Shown here one piece after another: positions 5,756 through 11,340 of a stretch of 33,088 nucleotides of DNA (position 1 is the first letter of the stretch; every line of letters begins with the position of its first letter). This DNA comes from Alphaproteobacteria bacterium. GTDB lineage: Bacteria; Pseudomonadota; Alphaproteobacteria; Micropepsales; Micropepsaceae. Below the pieces are notes generated by a model. It had not been told where the DNA came from, searched no databases, and worked only from the letters and a program-made list of their open reading frames with translations. The DNA lies in the NCBI GenBank assembly GCA_013140995.1, contig JABFRX010000089.1:1-33088 (forward strand), in the 5' to 3' direction. The position numbers and the translations under genes were made by a program.

Positions 5756-6454
5756 ATGCGGGGGGCATTGGTGGAACACACTGTCGTATGGCTGGTCGAT
5801 GCTCACCCGCTGTTGCGTTCGGGCCTGCGGTCGCAATTGGACGGGAAGGGCTTTGAGATTGCCGCGGAAGCCGCGACCGTCGATGAGATCACGCTAAGCG
5901 GGTCCGGCGGGCCTGCGCCCAACATCATCATTCTCGATTTCGCGCAGGGCGCCGACGCCGTCGCCGTTTTGAAGTCTGCGCAGCCGCAGGCGCGGACGGT
6001 CGTGTTCGCGGAGTCGGCCGAACTCTCGCATCTTGCCGACATGTTCAGTGCCGGCGCCGACGGCTATCTGCTGAAAAGCATCACGCCGAGCGCGCTAATC
6101 GAGTCCTTGCGGCTCGTGGCGCTGGGCGAGAAAGTCTTTCCCAGCATGTTGACTGATTTCTTGGGCGCGATGCGCGCGAACCAGTTGGGCACCAGCGAGC
6201 GGGTTCGCGTCGGCGACATCCCGCTGTCGCAGCGCGAGGTGGACATTATCCGCCGCTTGGCAGACGGGCACTCAAATAAGGCGATCGCCAAGGAACTCTC
6301 GATTACCGAGGCGACAGTCAAGGTGCACTTGAAGACGGTGCTGCGGAAGCTCGGCGCCTCCAACCGTACGCAAGTGGCTATATGGGCCGTGCAACACGGC
6401 CTGACGAACAACGGCAGCAATAGCGCCAAGAACGGCCGGGCGAAGCCCGCTTAG
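5756..6454 (+). CDS. LuxR/FixJ-type response regulator with altered receiver, CsgD-like architecture
   Basis: A 232-residue regulator: receiver domain (about 9-125) joined to a LuxR-type helix-turn-helix (about 157-215, PLSQREVDIIRRLADGHSNK and TEATVKVHLKTVLRKLG). The phospho-acceptor aspartate is retained (IIILDF, Asp61), as is the lysine (YLLKS, Lys107). The usual acidic pair in the first loop reads DA (VDAHP, Asp15-Ala16) and the switch Thr/Ser position reads Ala in VVFAES. Such changes weaken phosphorylation-dependent switching in relatives such as CsgD, the curli regulator. No partner kinase is adjacent. It lies just before a divergent secreted protein gene and a CsgG-like exporter, so control of that locus is a reasonable inference. 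ATG 5756 is preceded by AAGAGAG. Confidence 0.88.
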   Translation: MRGALVEHTVVWLVDAHPLLRSGLRSQLDGKGFEIAAEAATVDEITLSGSGGPAPNIIILDFAQGADAVAVLKSAQPQARTVVFAESAELSHLADMFSAGADGYLLKSITPSALIESLRLVALGEKVFPSMLTDFLGAMRANQLGTSERVRVGDIPLSQREVDIIRRLADGHSNKAIAKELSITEATVKVHLKTVLRKLGASNRTQVAIWAVQHGLTNNGSNSAKNGRAKPA

Positions 6455-6455
6455 A

Positions 6456-7040
6456 TCAGTTTCCCTGGTTCCTAAACGTCGCCGGACCGCGATCGAGTTC
6501 CGGATGCGCGCGGAATGAGGGCATAAGCGAGAGATCGGGCGACGACTCGCCGCGCCGGCGCGGTCCAGCTACCCTCGGCATACCGTAAGCGGCCGCCGTC
6601 CAGCCATCGACCGCCGTGTAGCCGCCATCAATTACGCCAAAGACTCGCTCCGTCCATGCGCTAACCGCATGATTTGGCGCGAAAAGGCGCGCGTAGTCGG
6701 CTGCGTAGTTGGCGTAAGGTGCAACCATCAACGCGTGGCTCATCAGCCGGCCGGCATACGGTGCAGCGCCCGAGGTTCCGTAGGCAAAATTGGGCGGGGG
6801 AAGCGGCGGTTCGTACCTGTTCAATGCAGGTGCGTACACGAACGTGTTGCCAACGGTGATCCCAGTATGACCCGCTTGGGCCGAAGCCGATGCAACGAAG
6901 GCCGGCGCGGGTGACGCGCCGAGCTGTACGCCGCTTTGGCTCGGAAATGCGTACTGATCGCCGGCACCGGCGATCGACGAGGCACACAAACTCAGTGCTG
7001 CTGTTGTGACGGCTGTCGCAAGGCTGCTGGTTACTTTCAT
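6456..7040 (-). CDS. Secreted hypothetical protein, Ala/Pro/Tyr-rich
   Basis: Unrecognised 194-residue exported protein. ATG 7040 follows a good ribosome site (GAGGACACC) and gives a signal peptide MKVTSSLATAVTTAALSLC with probable cleavage after AGA, leaving a mature chain starting GDQYAFP. The mature part has no cysteine, is rich in Ala, Pro, Gly and Tyr, includes PPLPPPNFAYG, and ends with a charged tail (PRRRGESSP...). An upstream in-frame start at 7103 would give a non-signal N-terminus and is unlikely. It is divergent from the CsgG/HfaB-like gene and convergent with the LuxR regulator. An accessory or structural role in the neighbouring export locus is a guess from position only. Confidence 0.7.
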   Translation of the reverse strand: MKVTSSLATAVTTAALSLCASSIAGAGDQYAFPSQSGVQLGASPAPAFVASASAQAGHTGITVGNTFVYAPALNRYEPPLPPPNFAYGTSGAAPYAGRLMSHALMVAPYANYAADYARLFAPNHAVSAWTERVFGVIDGGYTAVDGWTAAAYGMPRVAGPRRRGESSPDLSLMPSFRAHPELDRGPATFRNQGN

Positions 7041-7454
7041 GGTGTCCTCGAAACGCATTGGTTCACGACTCGCCTGATGAGCATCGCAAAGGAATCGCGG
7101 CACGTGAAGCGAGCATTGGCGTGTACCACCAAAGTAAGTAGCGATGGTTCCAAATGGTGACCGGTGTGGACAAATCTTGCGCCAACCGCACTCCTAACGT
7201 GCAGGTGCAGGTGCGTTGCAGCAGGTGATCGGTAGTCGTCCACAGACGTGACGCGATTGGAGTACGCCCAATGGTGAAGGATTCGACGCGCTGCGTGTTT
7301 CGACAGGCTAGCGCGCTGGCGGGGTAATTCGGAAGGCTCGGAAGTACCAGCCTTTGTCTCCAGTGCAGCCGCTCGTGAACTCCAAGTAATTTCCCCCCCG
7401 AACAGCGCGACGAGGCGATGGATTCCTCCGTCACGCGAACTGGGGTGGAAACCG
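7041..7454. promoter_or_regulatory. Divergent intergenic region upstream of the CsgG/HfaB-like operon
   Basis: A 414-base stretch between divergent genes. Open frames here on the minus strand have no start signal or family resemblance, so I treat it as non-coding. It must hold promoters for both the secreted protein gene and the exporter operon. It has a GCAGGT-rich patch at about 7200-7230 and the base composition is less GC-skewed than the flanking genes. No terminator or clear operator was found. Confidence 0.45.
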
Positions 7455-8306
7455 ATGAAGCGCCTTACGGCACTAGGACTTGGGCTTCTCTTCACGACGG
7501 CACTGACATCTTGTGCGGGCTTGGCACCCGGGGACGCAAGCGGCGTGAAGCCGTTGATCGTCTATCCGGTGACCAGCAACGATACGCCGTATAGTCAGTG
7601 TCTGCGTAAACTGAAGAATGTCCAGGCGAGCAGCTTGCCCGTGTTTGCCGTGGGCGAGATCGCCGACAAGACCGGACAGGTCTCTTATTACGACAAGTCG
7701 GGTAACAACTTGACGCAGGGCGCCGCCGAAATGGTGATGAGCGCACTCTACAAGACCGGCAAGGCGCACCTGGTTGAGCGGTACGACCTGCGCATTCCGC
7801 TCGCCGAGGTGAAGCTGGCCGAGCAAAACCGTCTCAGCCGCCCCGCGGATGCGTTCGGCAAGCTGCCAGCGACTGATTTCATCATCGTCGGCGCGCTGAC
7901 AGAGCTTAACTACAACATTGTAACCGGGGGTTTGGGGTTGCGCGTTGCGGGCGTTGGTGCCGGTGTACGCATGGCGGTCGTGAACGTCGCGCTCGACCTG
8001 CGCGTGATCAATTCGAAGAACTTCGCAGTGTCTTACGTGTCGTCGCTGCAGAAGCAAATCTACGGTTACGAGGTCGAGGCCGACGTGTTCCGGTTCTGGG
8101 ACTCAACGCTTGTCGAACTCGAAGCGGGCCATACGCGCAACGAGCCGCTTCAGCTTGGCGTGCGTACCGTCGCCGAGATGGCAACCTATCAGATCATGAC
8201 AGAATTCCTCCGGCTACCGAGGGATCCCAGCTGCGCCCTCGTAGAGAACGACCACGTGTCGTCTTATCTAGAGCAGCTAAAACCTAATGGGGAGACCACT
8301 AAATGA
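7455..8306 (+). CDS. CsgG/HfaB-family outer-membrane secretion lipoprotein
   Basis: A 283-residue lipoprotein like CsgG (curli export pore) and HfaB (holdfast-anchor assembly in Caulobacter). The signal peptide ends in the lipobox LTSC with Cys20 as the lipidated residue. The body shows family landmarks: TPYSQCL, PVFAVGEIADKTGQ, the LVERYD segment, and the glycine- and valine-rich LGLRVAGVGAGVRMAVVNVAL region typical of the pore-forming beta hairpins. Length matches CsgG (about 277). Ribosome site GGGGTGG precedes ATG 7455. Its stop overlaps the ATG of the next gene (ATGA at 8303-8306), so exporter and presumed substrate are translationally coupled. No CsgE or CsgF homologue is recognisable nearby, closer to the simpler hfa layout than to E. 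coli csg. Confidence 0.9.
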   Translation: MKRLTALGLGLLFTTALTSCAGLAPGDASGVKPLIVYPVTSNDTPYSQCLRKLKNVQASSLPVFAVGEIADKTGQVSYYDKSGNNLTQGAAEMVMSALYKTGKAHLVERYDLRIPLAEVKLAEQNRLSRPADAFGKLPATDFIIVGALTELNYNIVTGGLGLRVAGVGAGVRMAVVNVALDLRVINSKNFAVSYVSSLQKQIYGYEVEADVFRFWDSTLVELEAGHTRNEPLQLGVRTVAEMATYQIMTEFLRLPRDPSCALVENDHVSSYLEQLKPNGETTK

Positions 8307-9268
8307 AGACCCTAAAGAGTGCGAGGATCCTTGCGGCAAGCTTGGGTGTTCTCGCAGTCGGCGCAATGGCGACACCCGCCATGGCGTTCGACAATGTGGA
8401 CTGGACTTGGAATAAGAAGATCACGCAAAACGAATACATCAACGTCTACATCGACTTGGACGTCGATACGACCGGGTTGGTCGAAGTTGAGAAGTTGCAG
8501 ATCTTCCTTGGGAACGTGGATGCCCAATCGACGGTCAGCAACATCTACAACACCCAAGACCAAGATGGCTGGTACGAGTACATCCGCTATTGCTACTGCT
8601 ACGTCCCGGTTTGGGTCGATCCGTCGGAGTATGCGCCGACGGAGCTGCCCATCGTGCGTAGCATCGCGACGGCGGTTGGCAACAACCAGTCGATCACCTC
8701 GGATGTCCCCGTGTACCTGCACGACGGCCAGTTCGTAGCGAATACGTGGTTCAACTACGACTACGATGCGCTGCGCACTGCTGTCGACTCGCGTATGGGC
8801 GGCGGCAACGGCGGTCCGCACCATGAGAACGGCAACTTCCATACCGATCTCGCGGTGTACTTCACGTTAGGCGCGGCGTTCGGCTTGCTGCAAGCGGCCG
8901 ATATTCACGCGTACTCTAACGTGTACGACATCCTGAACGCGAGTGTTGAAAGCTCGGCCACGGCCGTCGCCAACAACCTCTCGGTCAATCTCGAGTCGGA
9001 TGTCGACGGAAGCTGCACGTCTGGTTGCTACGGCAAATCGAACCACATCGTGATCGCTGACATTACGCAATTTGCGTATGCCAACGTGAGCGCGGTGTCG
9101 AACGTGAACTGGGTCGTGGCGGACAACTACACTGGCTTGCGTACGATCACGTCGCCGGACGGCGTCGCGGCGACGCCGGATCCGGTGGTCCCGCTGGTTA
9201 GCTCGATCGCAACAGCGGTCGGCAACAACGTGTCGATCAACGTGGGCAAAGTAGACCCGACGAACTAA
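8303..9268 (+). CDS. Secreted repeat protein, candidate fibre subunit or anchor exported by the CsgG-like pore
   Basis: Unrecognised 321-residue exported protein. The signal peptide (MKTLKSARILAASLGVLAVG, cleavage after AMA) precedes a mature chain starting FDNVDW. Three copies of the motif S-x-A-T-A-V-x-N-N-x-S-[IV] occur at about residues 120 (SIATAVGNNQSI), 217 (SSATAVANNLSV) and 301 (SIATAVGNNVSI), 84-97 residues apart. Between them are Asn/Ala/Val-rich stretches such as ITQFAYANVSAVSNVN. Asn/Gln-rich periodic repeats behind a CsgG-type gene recall curlin and holdfast-anchor proteins, but I do not claim homology to CsgA or HfaD. Cysteine pairs occur in YCYCY and CTSGC. The ATGA overlap with the exporter supports joint function. 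Confidence 0.8.
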   Translation: MKTLKSARILAASLGVLAVGAMATPAMAFDNVDWTWNKKITQNEYINVYIDLDVDTTGLVEVEKLQIFLGNVDAQSTVSNIYNTQDQDGWYEYIRYCYCYVPVWVDPSEYAPTELPIVRSIATAVGNNQSITSDVPVYLHDGQFVANTWFNYDYDALRTAVDSRMGGGNGGPHHENGNFHTDLAVYFTLGAAFGLLQAADIHAYSNVYDILNASVESSATAVANNLSVNLESDVDGSCTSGCYGKSNHIVIADITQFAYANVSAVSNVNWVVADNYTGLRTITSPDGVAATPDPVVPLVSSIATAVGNNVSINVGKVDPTN

Positions 9269-9292
9269 GCCGGGTCGGATAAGAGGCAAGGG

Positions 9293-9315
9293 CGGCGGGG
9301 CGAAGTGCCCCGCCG
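9293..9315 (+). promoter_or_regulatory. Intercistronic GC hairpin between the two secreted-protein genes
   Basis: A perfect 9-bp stem (CGGCGGGGC at 9293-9301, GCCCCGCCG at 9307-9315) with a five-base loop. No U-run follows, so it is more likely to act as an mRNA-stabilising or partial attenuation element between the 8303 and 9349 genes than as a full terminator. Confidence 0.55.
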
Positions 9316-9348
9316 TCATCTCGGACAAGCCAAAGATTGGGTGAAGTC

Positions 9349-9828
9349 ATGACGAAGTTTCAGTTGGGTGCGGCCTTGGCCGGTGCCGTGAGCGTTTGCT
9401 TGATTGGCCTTTCGACCGCGAGCGCCGATCCGTTGGGAGGCAAGGATCCGTGGAATTTTACGCCGACAAATCGACTGAGTGCGGCGGTGATAATCAAGAA
9501 TGTCGAGGACGGCAACGGCACGTCCGGCGCGGGCTCCGGCGGCGGCGGAACGACCGTCGTTTGTGGCGGCACGAGCGGCGGTTCGGGGGACAACGCGAAC
9601 GGCGCTGCTTCGTCCGCCACGGCGAACAACACCTGCATTATCGTCAATAATTCCAGCGGCGCGATTGTCGATGTGGATCAGGATTCCACCGGCAATCAGT
9701 CGGCCGACTCCAACGCCAACTCGCAGTCGAGTTCGGCGACGACGACGAACAATGGTGCGAGCACGCATAACGGGCCGACAGGCAATATCGATGAGGTCTC
9801 CGCTATCTTGAATACGCGCCGCCAATAG
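9349..9828 (+). CDS. Small secreted Ser/Asn/Gly/Thr-rich protein, candidate second fibre subunit
   Basis: A 159-residue exported protein of low complexity. ATG 9349 follows GGGTGAAG and starts MTKFQLGAALAGAVSVCLIG, a signal peptide with cleavage after ASA. The mature chain begins DPLGGKDPWNFTPTNRLSAAV, then becomes rich in Gly, Ser, Asn, Ala and Thr with two cysteines (VVCGG and NNTCIIV) and a polar repeat-like run (VDQDSTGNQSADSNANSQSS). The composition resembles secreted amyloid or surface-filament subunits. It lies 80 bases after the repeat protein, shares its strand, and is closed by a strong terminator, so it is the likely last gene of the exporter operon. No homologue is recognised; function is inferred from context. 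Confidence 0.75.
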   Translation: MTKFQLGAALAGAVSVCLIGLSTASADPLGGKDPWNFTPTNRLSAAVIIKNVEDGNGTSGAGSGGGGTTVVCGGTSGGSGDNANGAASSATANNTCIIVNNSSGAIVDVDQDSTGNQSADSNANSQSSSATTTNNGASTHNGPTGNIDEVSAILNTRRQ

Positions 9829-9855
9829 CAAGTTTGCGACAAGGGGACAGTGAAG

Positions 9856-9881
9856 AGGCCGCCCGTGGGGCGGCCTTTTTT
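9856..9881 (+). terminator. Rho-independent terminator of the CsgG-like operon
   Basis: A perfect 9-bp stem, AGGCCGCCC (9856-9864) with GGGCGGCCT (9868-9876), a three-base GTG loop and a run of six T at 9876-9881. It is 28 bases after the stop at 9828 and marks the end of the 7455-9828 transcription unit. Confidence 0.93.
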
Positions 9882-9884
9882 GTT

Positions 9885-9918
9885 CGCAACGTTAGAGCGG
9901 GCGCAACGTTAGAGCGGG
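9885..9918. repeat. 17-bp perfect tandem duplication
   Basis: CGCAACGTTAGAGCGGG occurs twice head to tail (9885-9901 and 9902-9918), immediately after the terminator and just before the stop codon of the opposite-strand TPR gene. It appears to be a recent slippage duplication in non-coding sequence. Confidence 0.9.
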
Positions 9919-9924
9919 CCGCTT

Positions 9925-10575
9925 CTAGGGTTTGATCCCGAGTTGCGTCATCTCCTTCTCGACACTGTCGCTCATTCCGCGCGCATCGGACATGTCCTTC
10001 TTGCCGCCGTTTTCGTCGCCCAACTTTTTCTTTACGACGCCACGACCGTAGAGCGCCTTGTAGTGCGTCGGGACGCGTTTCACCGTCGCATCGAAGAACG
10101 ACTGAGCCTCGGCGAAATCAGCCGAGCTGTAAGCGACCAAGCCACGCATGAAGTAAGGCGGTGCAAATGCCGGCTTGAGCTTGATGACCTGATCGAAGTC
10201 GGTCTTGGCACCGGAAAGGTCCGACAGCGACATGAACACCATCCCACGCTGGAAATAGAACTCCGGCGCCTGGCGGATGCCGATCGCCTTGTTTAAGTCC
10301 GCCATCGCGTTGTCGAGTTGACCCACCGCGAAGTAGGCGGCGCCACGAGTCGCGTAGTAGTCTCCTGTATGGGGATGTTTGACGAAGCCGGAGTTTATGA
10401 TTTTCGTGCAAACGGGGATTTGATCTTCGGGCTTCGACCCATCGACCCCCATGCATACGCGCAGGTCGTTCTGCGTCAACTTTGTTCCAGCCTTTGCCTT
10501 CGGCGCAGCCGCCGCCGGCATTGACAGAATTGCGAGAGCTGCGGCAGCAGCGGTTGCAACGAGGATGCGCGACAT
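9925..10575 (-). CDS. Exported tetratricopeptide repeat protein
   Basis: A 216-residue protein with an N-terminal signal peptide (MSRILVATAAAAALAILSMPAAAA, cleavage after AAA) and about three TPR units over residues 70-190 (for example DYYATRGAAYFAVGQLDNAM and PPYFMRGLVAYSSADFAEAQ). TPRs bind peptides or scaffold complexes; this would act in the periplasm. Cys41 and Cys56 in CMGVDGSKPEDQIPVC could form a disulfide. ATG 10575 lies three bases after the stop of the upstream TPR gene, so the two are one operon. It is convergent with the exporter operon but separated by its terminator. Partner unknown. Confidence 0.88.
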   Translation of the reverse strand: MSRILVATAAAAALAILSMPAAAAPKAKAGTKLTQNDLRVCMGVDGSKPEDQIPVCTKIINSGFVKHPHTGDYYATRGAAYFAVGQLDNAMADLNKAIGIRQAPEFYFQRGMVFMSLSDLSGAKTDFDQVIKLKPAFAPPYFMRGLVAYSSADFAEAQSFFDATVKRVPTHYKALYGRGVVKKKLGDENGGKKDMSDARGMSDSVEKEMTQLGIKP

Positions 10576-10578
10576 GCC

Positions 10579-11340
10579 CTAGCCCCCCGTCTTTGCCAAC
10601 GCGGCGAGCTGGGCTTTGGCTTCTTTGTGGCCGGGCGTGATCGCCAGGACAGCTTCAAAGTCGGCCTTTGCCTTCACCTTGTCACCGCCACCAGCGTATA
10701 GAGCGCCGCGGTTGTACAAGGCGACTGTTTGTTTGGCGTCCATCGAGATAGCTTTCGACAGGTCATCCATCGCTTTTGGCTTGTCGCCCGTGATCATGTA
10801 GGCGCTGCCTCGTGTTGTGTACGAGGCCGGATCCTTCGGATCCAACTCAATCGCTTTGCTGAGGTCCGCGATTGCTTTGCCGGGGTTCTTCTTTCCCATA
10901 TACGCCATGCCACGGTTGTTGAAGGCCGACGAGGACTTGGGGTCGATCAAAATTGCTTTATCCAAGTCCTTGATCGCAGCATCGAATTTCTGCTGGGCGA
11001 TTAGTATTCCGGCGCGTGTCTGAAGCGCCCGGCTGAAGTCCGGCTTCAGGCGCAAGGCTTCATTCATATCGACAAGAGCCTTGGGGCCGTCGCCAAGACG
11101 GATGTAGGCGGAGCCGCGGTTGTAGTGAGCGCCAGCCTTGTCTTGCGGGCTGACTTTGGGTTCCTTCAGCACCGTCGTGCAAGCGGCCACCAGCTGTTGC
11201 CAACCGGCCGGCGCCTTGCCAAAGCACAGACTTGCTGCTTGCAACAGCTGCGCTGATGCCGTGGGGCCCGCGGCTTGAGCGGGTGCAAGGGTTGCGGTAA
11301 GCGAAATGGCGGCTGCGCCAAGTTTTGCTGTCATGCTCAT
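10579..11340 (-). CDS. Exported tetratricopeptide repeat protein, paralogous to the next gene
   Basis: A 253-residue protein with a signal peptide (MSMTAKLGAAAISLTATLAPAQA, cleavage after AQA) and five clear TPR units from about residue 68 to 240, each with the A-x-x-x-R-G-x-A-Y pattern (AHYNRGSAYIRLGD, AFNNRGMAYMGKKN, SYTTRGSAYMITGD, ALYNRGALYAGGGD). Periplasmic or surface location is expected. It is the first gene of a two-gene operon with the shorter TPR gene. The two share architecture (signal peptide, a cysteine pair, TPR array), suggesting an old duplication. Start ATG 11340, with another ATG two codons in. Confidence 0.9.
   Translation of the reverse strand: MSMTAKLGAAAISLTATLAPAQAAGPTASAQLLQAASLCFGKAPAGWQQLVAACTTVLKEPKVSPQDKAGAHYNRGSAYIRLGDGPKALVDMNEALRLKPDFSRALQTRAGILIAQQKFDAAIKDLDKAILIDPKSSSAFNNRGMAYMGKKNPGKAIADLSKAIELDPKDPASYTTRGSAYMITGDKPKAMDDLSKAISMDAKQTVALYNRGALYAGGGDKVKAKADFEAVLAITPGHKEAKAQLAALAKTGG

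Follow-up and report, generated by a model that had tools for sequence, protein, structure and literature searches.

A probable divergent sister of the Caulobacter holdfast anchor: an HfaB/CsgG-type locus with three unnamed families of secreted proteins in Alphaproteobacteria

The window analyzed here is a stretch of 33,088 nucleotides from an alphaproteobacterium of the Micropepsaceae, and the locus that concerns us begins with a LuxR/NarL-type response regulator (5756–6454, + strand). Next to it, on the opposite strand, lies the gene for a secreted protein with a signal peptide, referred to as PB (6456–7040, −), whose start is best placed at the ATG at 7040 and whose stop ends at 6456. Three genes on the + strand follow: a lipoprotein of the HfaB/CsgG type, presumed to be an outer-membrane pore (7455–8306); a secreted, HfaD-like repeat protein, PD (8303–9268); and a small, low-complexity, HfaA-like secreted protein with one repeat unit, PE (9349–9828). 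A preliminary description of this DNA had listed a CsgG/HfaB-type lipoprotein with the lipobox LTSC, its coupling to a repeat protein by an ATGA overlap, a low-complexity secreted protein and strong terminator downstream, and a divergent secreted protein and LuxR-type regulator upstream. All of these were found, with the exporter stop and PD start overlapping at 8303–8306. The probable intrinsic terminator, a hairpin followed by a U run (9852–9880, +), lies within a 56-nt stretch (9840–9895) that folds at −30.2 kcal/mol (z −5.6); it was absent from the list of a simple terminator scan, probably because the pairing of the stem continues into the T run. Two adjoining, secreted-looking tetratricopeptide-repeat proteins are encoded just downstream on the opposite strand (9925–11340, −), and a Sel1/TPR-like gene lies downstream of PE in about 11 other loci.

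Comparison with relatives in the genus gave dN/dS values of 0.02–0.05 for the exporter and 0.20–0.41 for the secreted proteins (0.21–0.41 for PB). The exporter, PB, PD and PE are all under purifying selection, and within the genus the secreted proteins are the fastest-changing. These low ratios, together with the preservation of gene order in distant genomes, indicate that the genes are real.

The exporter matched the Pfam CsgG family (95 bits) and CsgG structures (E 1.3e-17). Among curated families its best match was the NCBIfam HfaB model, with 168 bits where the cut-off is 300; a canonical HfaB from the same bacterial family scores 376 on this model. The exporter is HfaB-like, yet below the curated HfaB cut-off, and its sequence suggests that it probably forms a CsgG-type outer-membrane pore. 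The only other Pfam-CsgG gene in the same genome (L002:1087–2226, contig C130) is without a lipobox, and its C-terminal stretch resembles an SH3 domain by eye. The regulator carries GerE (E 7.5e-20) and receiver (E 2.4e-9) domains; in the latter the second residue of the acidic pair is Ala, and the putative phospho-acceptor Asp61 is kept. It probably controls the locus.

None of the three secreted proteins had a Pfam or NCBIfam match, and their relatives gave isolated weak matches to curated families (for the PB family, NCBIfam was searched with the window protein alone), one of them a PE relative that matched HfaA at E 0.004. The three families are without a name in these libraries. The earlier characterization of the proteins as unrecognized stands as far as curated families are concerned, but not at greater evolutionary distance, where profile comparison linked the PD family to HfaD and the PE family to HfaA. 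PB and its counterparts appear to be the only secreted family here without a known relative. PB proteins from the genus align with the products of divergent genes elsewhere at an N-terminal aromatic motif, which in the window protein is YAF, and at two C-terminal WT motifs (alignment A3), with an overall identity of 10–19%, and the divergent genes of the different loci likely share a common origin.

PD contains three repeat cores, ATAVGNNQSI (8660–8695, +), ATAVANNLSV (8951–8986, +) and ATAVGNNVSI (9203–9238, +), in which A122, A124 and N127, A219, A221 and N224, and A303, A305 and N308, respectively, are near-invariant (alignment A1). Matches of the PE profile extend to the repeats in a number of PD relatives, indicating that PE and PD share a repeat unit. 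Structure prediction, proposed earlier as a check for stacked beta folds in both proteins, gave a beta-rich model of moderate confidence for PD (pLDDT 66) and predicted PE to be disordered. A Foldseek search with the PD model placed the amyloid protein FapC first among solved neighbors, as a weak match (E 1.5e-3, TM 0.2); the fold search returned no significant structural match, and none at all from the viral library.

Using the exporter as a query against genome contigs, we found 39 loci in many families, nearly all of them in the Alphaproteobacteria, with 51–93% identity in the best segment; gene spacing was tabulated for 39 rows, one of which is the window. The order hfaB-PD-PE recurs in essentially all of them, so the survey of relatives called for in the preliminary description bore out a conserved arrangement. 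In rows with a sufficiently long contig and a PD start that could be located, the distance from the end of the exporter gene to PD is no more than about 45 bases, and that from PD to PE no more than about 200; the script misplaced the PD start in rows L050, L057 and L061, and the contigs of L026, L039 and L052 were too short for the whole set. A homologue of the regulator lies within the fetched flanks in 33 of the 39 rows and a PB-like gene in 32, one of the latter being a weak match. A class-wide draw of 387 genomes contained PD in 12, with an adjacent HfaB-like gene in 11 of these, and the locus also occurs in Azospirillum, Oricola and Fodinicurvata; Oceanibaculum pacificum and Fodinicurvata fenggangensis are examples of cultured carriers from the environment. 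It is scattered across the Alphaproteobacteria, and our searches of open-access literature found no description of it. One genome (G050; L062, L063 and L064) carries five complete exporter-PD-PE cassettes and one further PD-PE pair; three of the five cassettes form one cluster, which also contains the extra pair next to a partial exporter gene, and LuxR-type regulators are present in each cassette region.

The secreted families share a short aromatic motif, [WFY]x[WFY], near the mature N terminus, represented in the window by Tyr30-Ala-Phe32 of PB shortly past the signal peptide (6945–6953, −), Trp34-Thr-Trp36 of PD (8402–8410, +) and Trp35-Asn-Phe37 of PE (PWNF; 9451–9459, +). Scored within residues 1–16 after the predicted signal-peptide cleavage site, which was placed by a simple home-made rule, the motif is present in 78% of PE proteins (n = 37), 100% of PD proteins (n = 36), 93% of the divergent proteins and 86% of PB homologues (n = 7), compared to 2–18% of shuffled mature sequences. 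Proteins within a family do not count as independent cases, and the evidence proper is the occurrence of the motif at a common position in three separate families. Of 38 further open reading frames of the loci with a predicted secreted product, one had a match, itself a member of the divergent family, and the remaining 37 had none; HfaA and HfaD are also without the motif at their mature N termini. We propose that it is a candidate export tag, with a role comparable to that of the N-terminal targeting segment of CsgA.

Relatives in the same family as the window carry hfaA-hfaB-hfaD, and the window's genus has the hfaB-PD-PE locus instead. Three HfaA proteins and one HfaB tested from these same-family genomes all scored above the NCBIfam cut-offs, and two of three proteins in the HfaD position matched the HfaD model below its cut-off. 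Because a first iterative PE search had absorbed HfaA, the PE profiles were rebuilt without it, so that the PE and PD profiles compared by hhalign with same-family HfaA and HfaD came solely from loci of the window type. PE matched HfaA with a probability of 95.0% (E 4.1e-8) and PD matched HfaD with 94.8% (E 4.8e-8), while the best of sixty column shuffles reached 0.3% and reversal gave at most 1%. The PE-HfaA match is about 40 columns long and centers on a single repeat unit, A-T/S-A-x-[GA]-N ... Q-x-x-x-G-[ND]-Q. These results suggest a distant kinship between the PE family and HfaA, and likewise between the PD family and HfaD. The curated HfaA model (NF037934) found no match in the window's genome or four genus relatives, and the HfaD model none in PD or its 32 relatives. 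In a tree of exporters, canonical HfaB formed a single long-branched clade, and the window's genus grouped with exporters of Rhizobiales, Rhodospirillales and further lineages. The root is unreliable and the outgroup branches are saturated, and we claim no descent between the two types. Both a window-type cassette and another HfaB-type gene are present in one genome (G072), indicating that the two can coexist.

We consider it likely that this locus and the Caulobacter HfaABD anchor are divergent sisters, and that an HfaB-like pore would here export an HfaA-like protein, an HfaD-like protein and one extra protein to form a surface adhesive or anchor. The preliminary description, which saw a curli- or holdfast-anchor-like export locus, is supported in part, by the conserved order, the HfaB/CsgG-type exporter and the missing CsgE and CsgF; the roles of fiber subunit, nucleator or anchor that it gave to the three secreted proteins are candidate ones. 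Our own reading draws on the matches of the exporter to HfaB and to CsgG structures, the conserved order, the HfaB-like neighbor of PD in 11 of 12 genomes, the five cassettes of one genome, the PE-HfaA and PD-HfaD profiles, the repeat common to PE and PD, and the motif common to three families; it is weakened by the exporter score under the HfaB cut-off, the lack of the motif in HfaA and HfaD, the moderate PD model with no significant structural match, the predicted disorder of PE and a search for holdfast polysaccharide genes that identified none. Under the control of the LuxR-type regulator, the HfaB-like lipoprotein would assemble a CsgG-type outer-membrane pore. PD with its several repeats, PE with its one and the separate PB would reach the periplasm by means of their signal peptides and pass through the pore, perhaps recognized by the aromatic motif. 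PD and PE, with their common repeat unit, may then assemble together into a surface adhesive, which could be an amyloid-like fiber or a polysaccharide anchor.

The first of these two forms, a curli-like fiber in which PE and PD polymerize independently of polysaccharide, is possible but somewhat doubtful. A CsgG-type pore, secreted substrates with repeats, a LuxR-type regulator and the place of amyloid FapC at the head of the Foldseek matches are all consistent with it, but the weakness of that match, the single repeat unit of PE, the lack of detectable CsgA similarity in PE and PD, and the missing CsgE (own genome) and CsgF (own genome and 60 relatives) argue against it. The second form, a true holdfast anchor through which a holdfast-type polysaccharide would be tethered to the cell in the manner of HfaABD in Caulobacter, seems to us unlikely. 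In its favor are the relatedness of PE to HfaA and PD to HfaD and the presence of this locus in the window's genus where same-family genomes have canonical hfaABD, and the genome does contain two polysaccharide-export (OPX) genes. However, these are not assignable to HfsD, and their neighborhoods look like general exopolysaccharide loci and are not callable as HfsDAB. The locus is, moreover, present in Azospirillum, Oricola and Fodinicurvata, which to our knowledge are not known for holdfasts. That the CsgG-family protein is an envelope lipoprotein and not an exporter, with PB, PD and PE as ordinary periplasmic proteins, is very improbable: many Pfam-CsgG proteins stand outside curli systems, and PMC3521004 reports a large share of non-specific matches, but HfaB is the best curated match of the exporter, whose gene has a fixed place next to relatives of HfaA and HfaD, two proteins that in Caulobacter depend on HfaB for their surface location (PMC6707917).

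It is conceivable, and we offer this tentatively as falling a little short of an even chance, that the locus represents a separate fiber or anchor system, widespread but patchy, whose HfaB-like pore recognizes three unrelated substrates by the two-aromatic motif, and of which the Caulobacter anchor is a specialized sister. The assembly of HfaA, HfaB and HfaD, and the way in which they hold the holdfast, are described as still unclear in PMC6707917. With its three unnamed families of secreted proteins and a candidate export tag, a compact sister system in organisms other than the canonical holdfast bearers would offer a second case in which to study substrate choice and export by HfaB-type pores, and could show whether the holdfast anchor is at heart a protein fiber.

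A related subtype, in which the HfaB/CsgG-type protein is fused to an OmpA domain, was found in two genomes (G072 and G327; L072:2378–4549 and L074:2855–4963). Like the present locus, it combines such a protein with a neighboring secreted repeat protein whose mature N-terminal region bears a two-aromatic motif, PWQF, in the corresponding position; it differs in the C-terminal OmpA domain of the exporter and in the upstream position of the secreted protein, and a PD-family neighbor was not found. The same kind of upstream protein occurs at a further locus (L075:2360–4578), where the exporter is, by eye, without the OmpA-like end.

The locus shares with the curli genes of Escherichia coli (csgBAC/csgDEFG) a CsgG-family pore, secreted repeat proteins, a divergent arrangement and a nearby LuxR-type regulator, but it is not curli by curated tests. 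The absence of CsgE and CsgF from the system, as envisaged in the preliminary description, was confirmed for CsgE in the window's own genome and for CsgF in that genome and 60 relatives. Alphaproteobacterial curli often lack both proteins too (PMC3521004). PB, PD and PE had no match to Pfam Curlin_rpt, and the comparison of PE and PD with CsgA gave no similarity above the reversed control, and the idea that these two are curlins was set aside. The same genome encodes two unlinked proteins with curlin repeats above the Pfam Curlin_rpt cut-off (L103:1893–2537, +, contig C255; L104:3418–3981, −, contig C182), neither of which has the [WFY]x[WFY] motif and which occur in a genome without CsgE or CsgF.

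Nor is the locus HfaABD by curated tests (NF037934, NF037935 and NF037936): exporter, HfaA and HfaD each fall short of the cut-off, and the order is hfaB-PD-PE, with PE last, in place of hfaA-hfaB-hfaD. It is further set apart by the extra divergent secreted protein, the linked LuxR-type regulator and the aromatic N-terminal motif. The two systems nevertheless have in common an HfaB/CsgG-type lipoprotein, a large repeat protein encoded directly after it and a small one-repeat protein, PD being a probable remote homologue of HfaD and PE of HfaA. By its architecture, the locus works like both HfaABD and curli.
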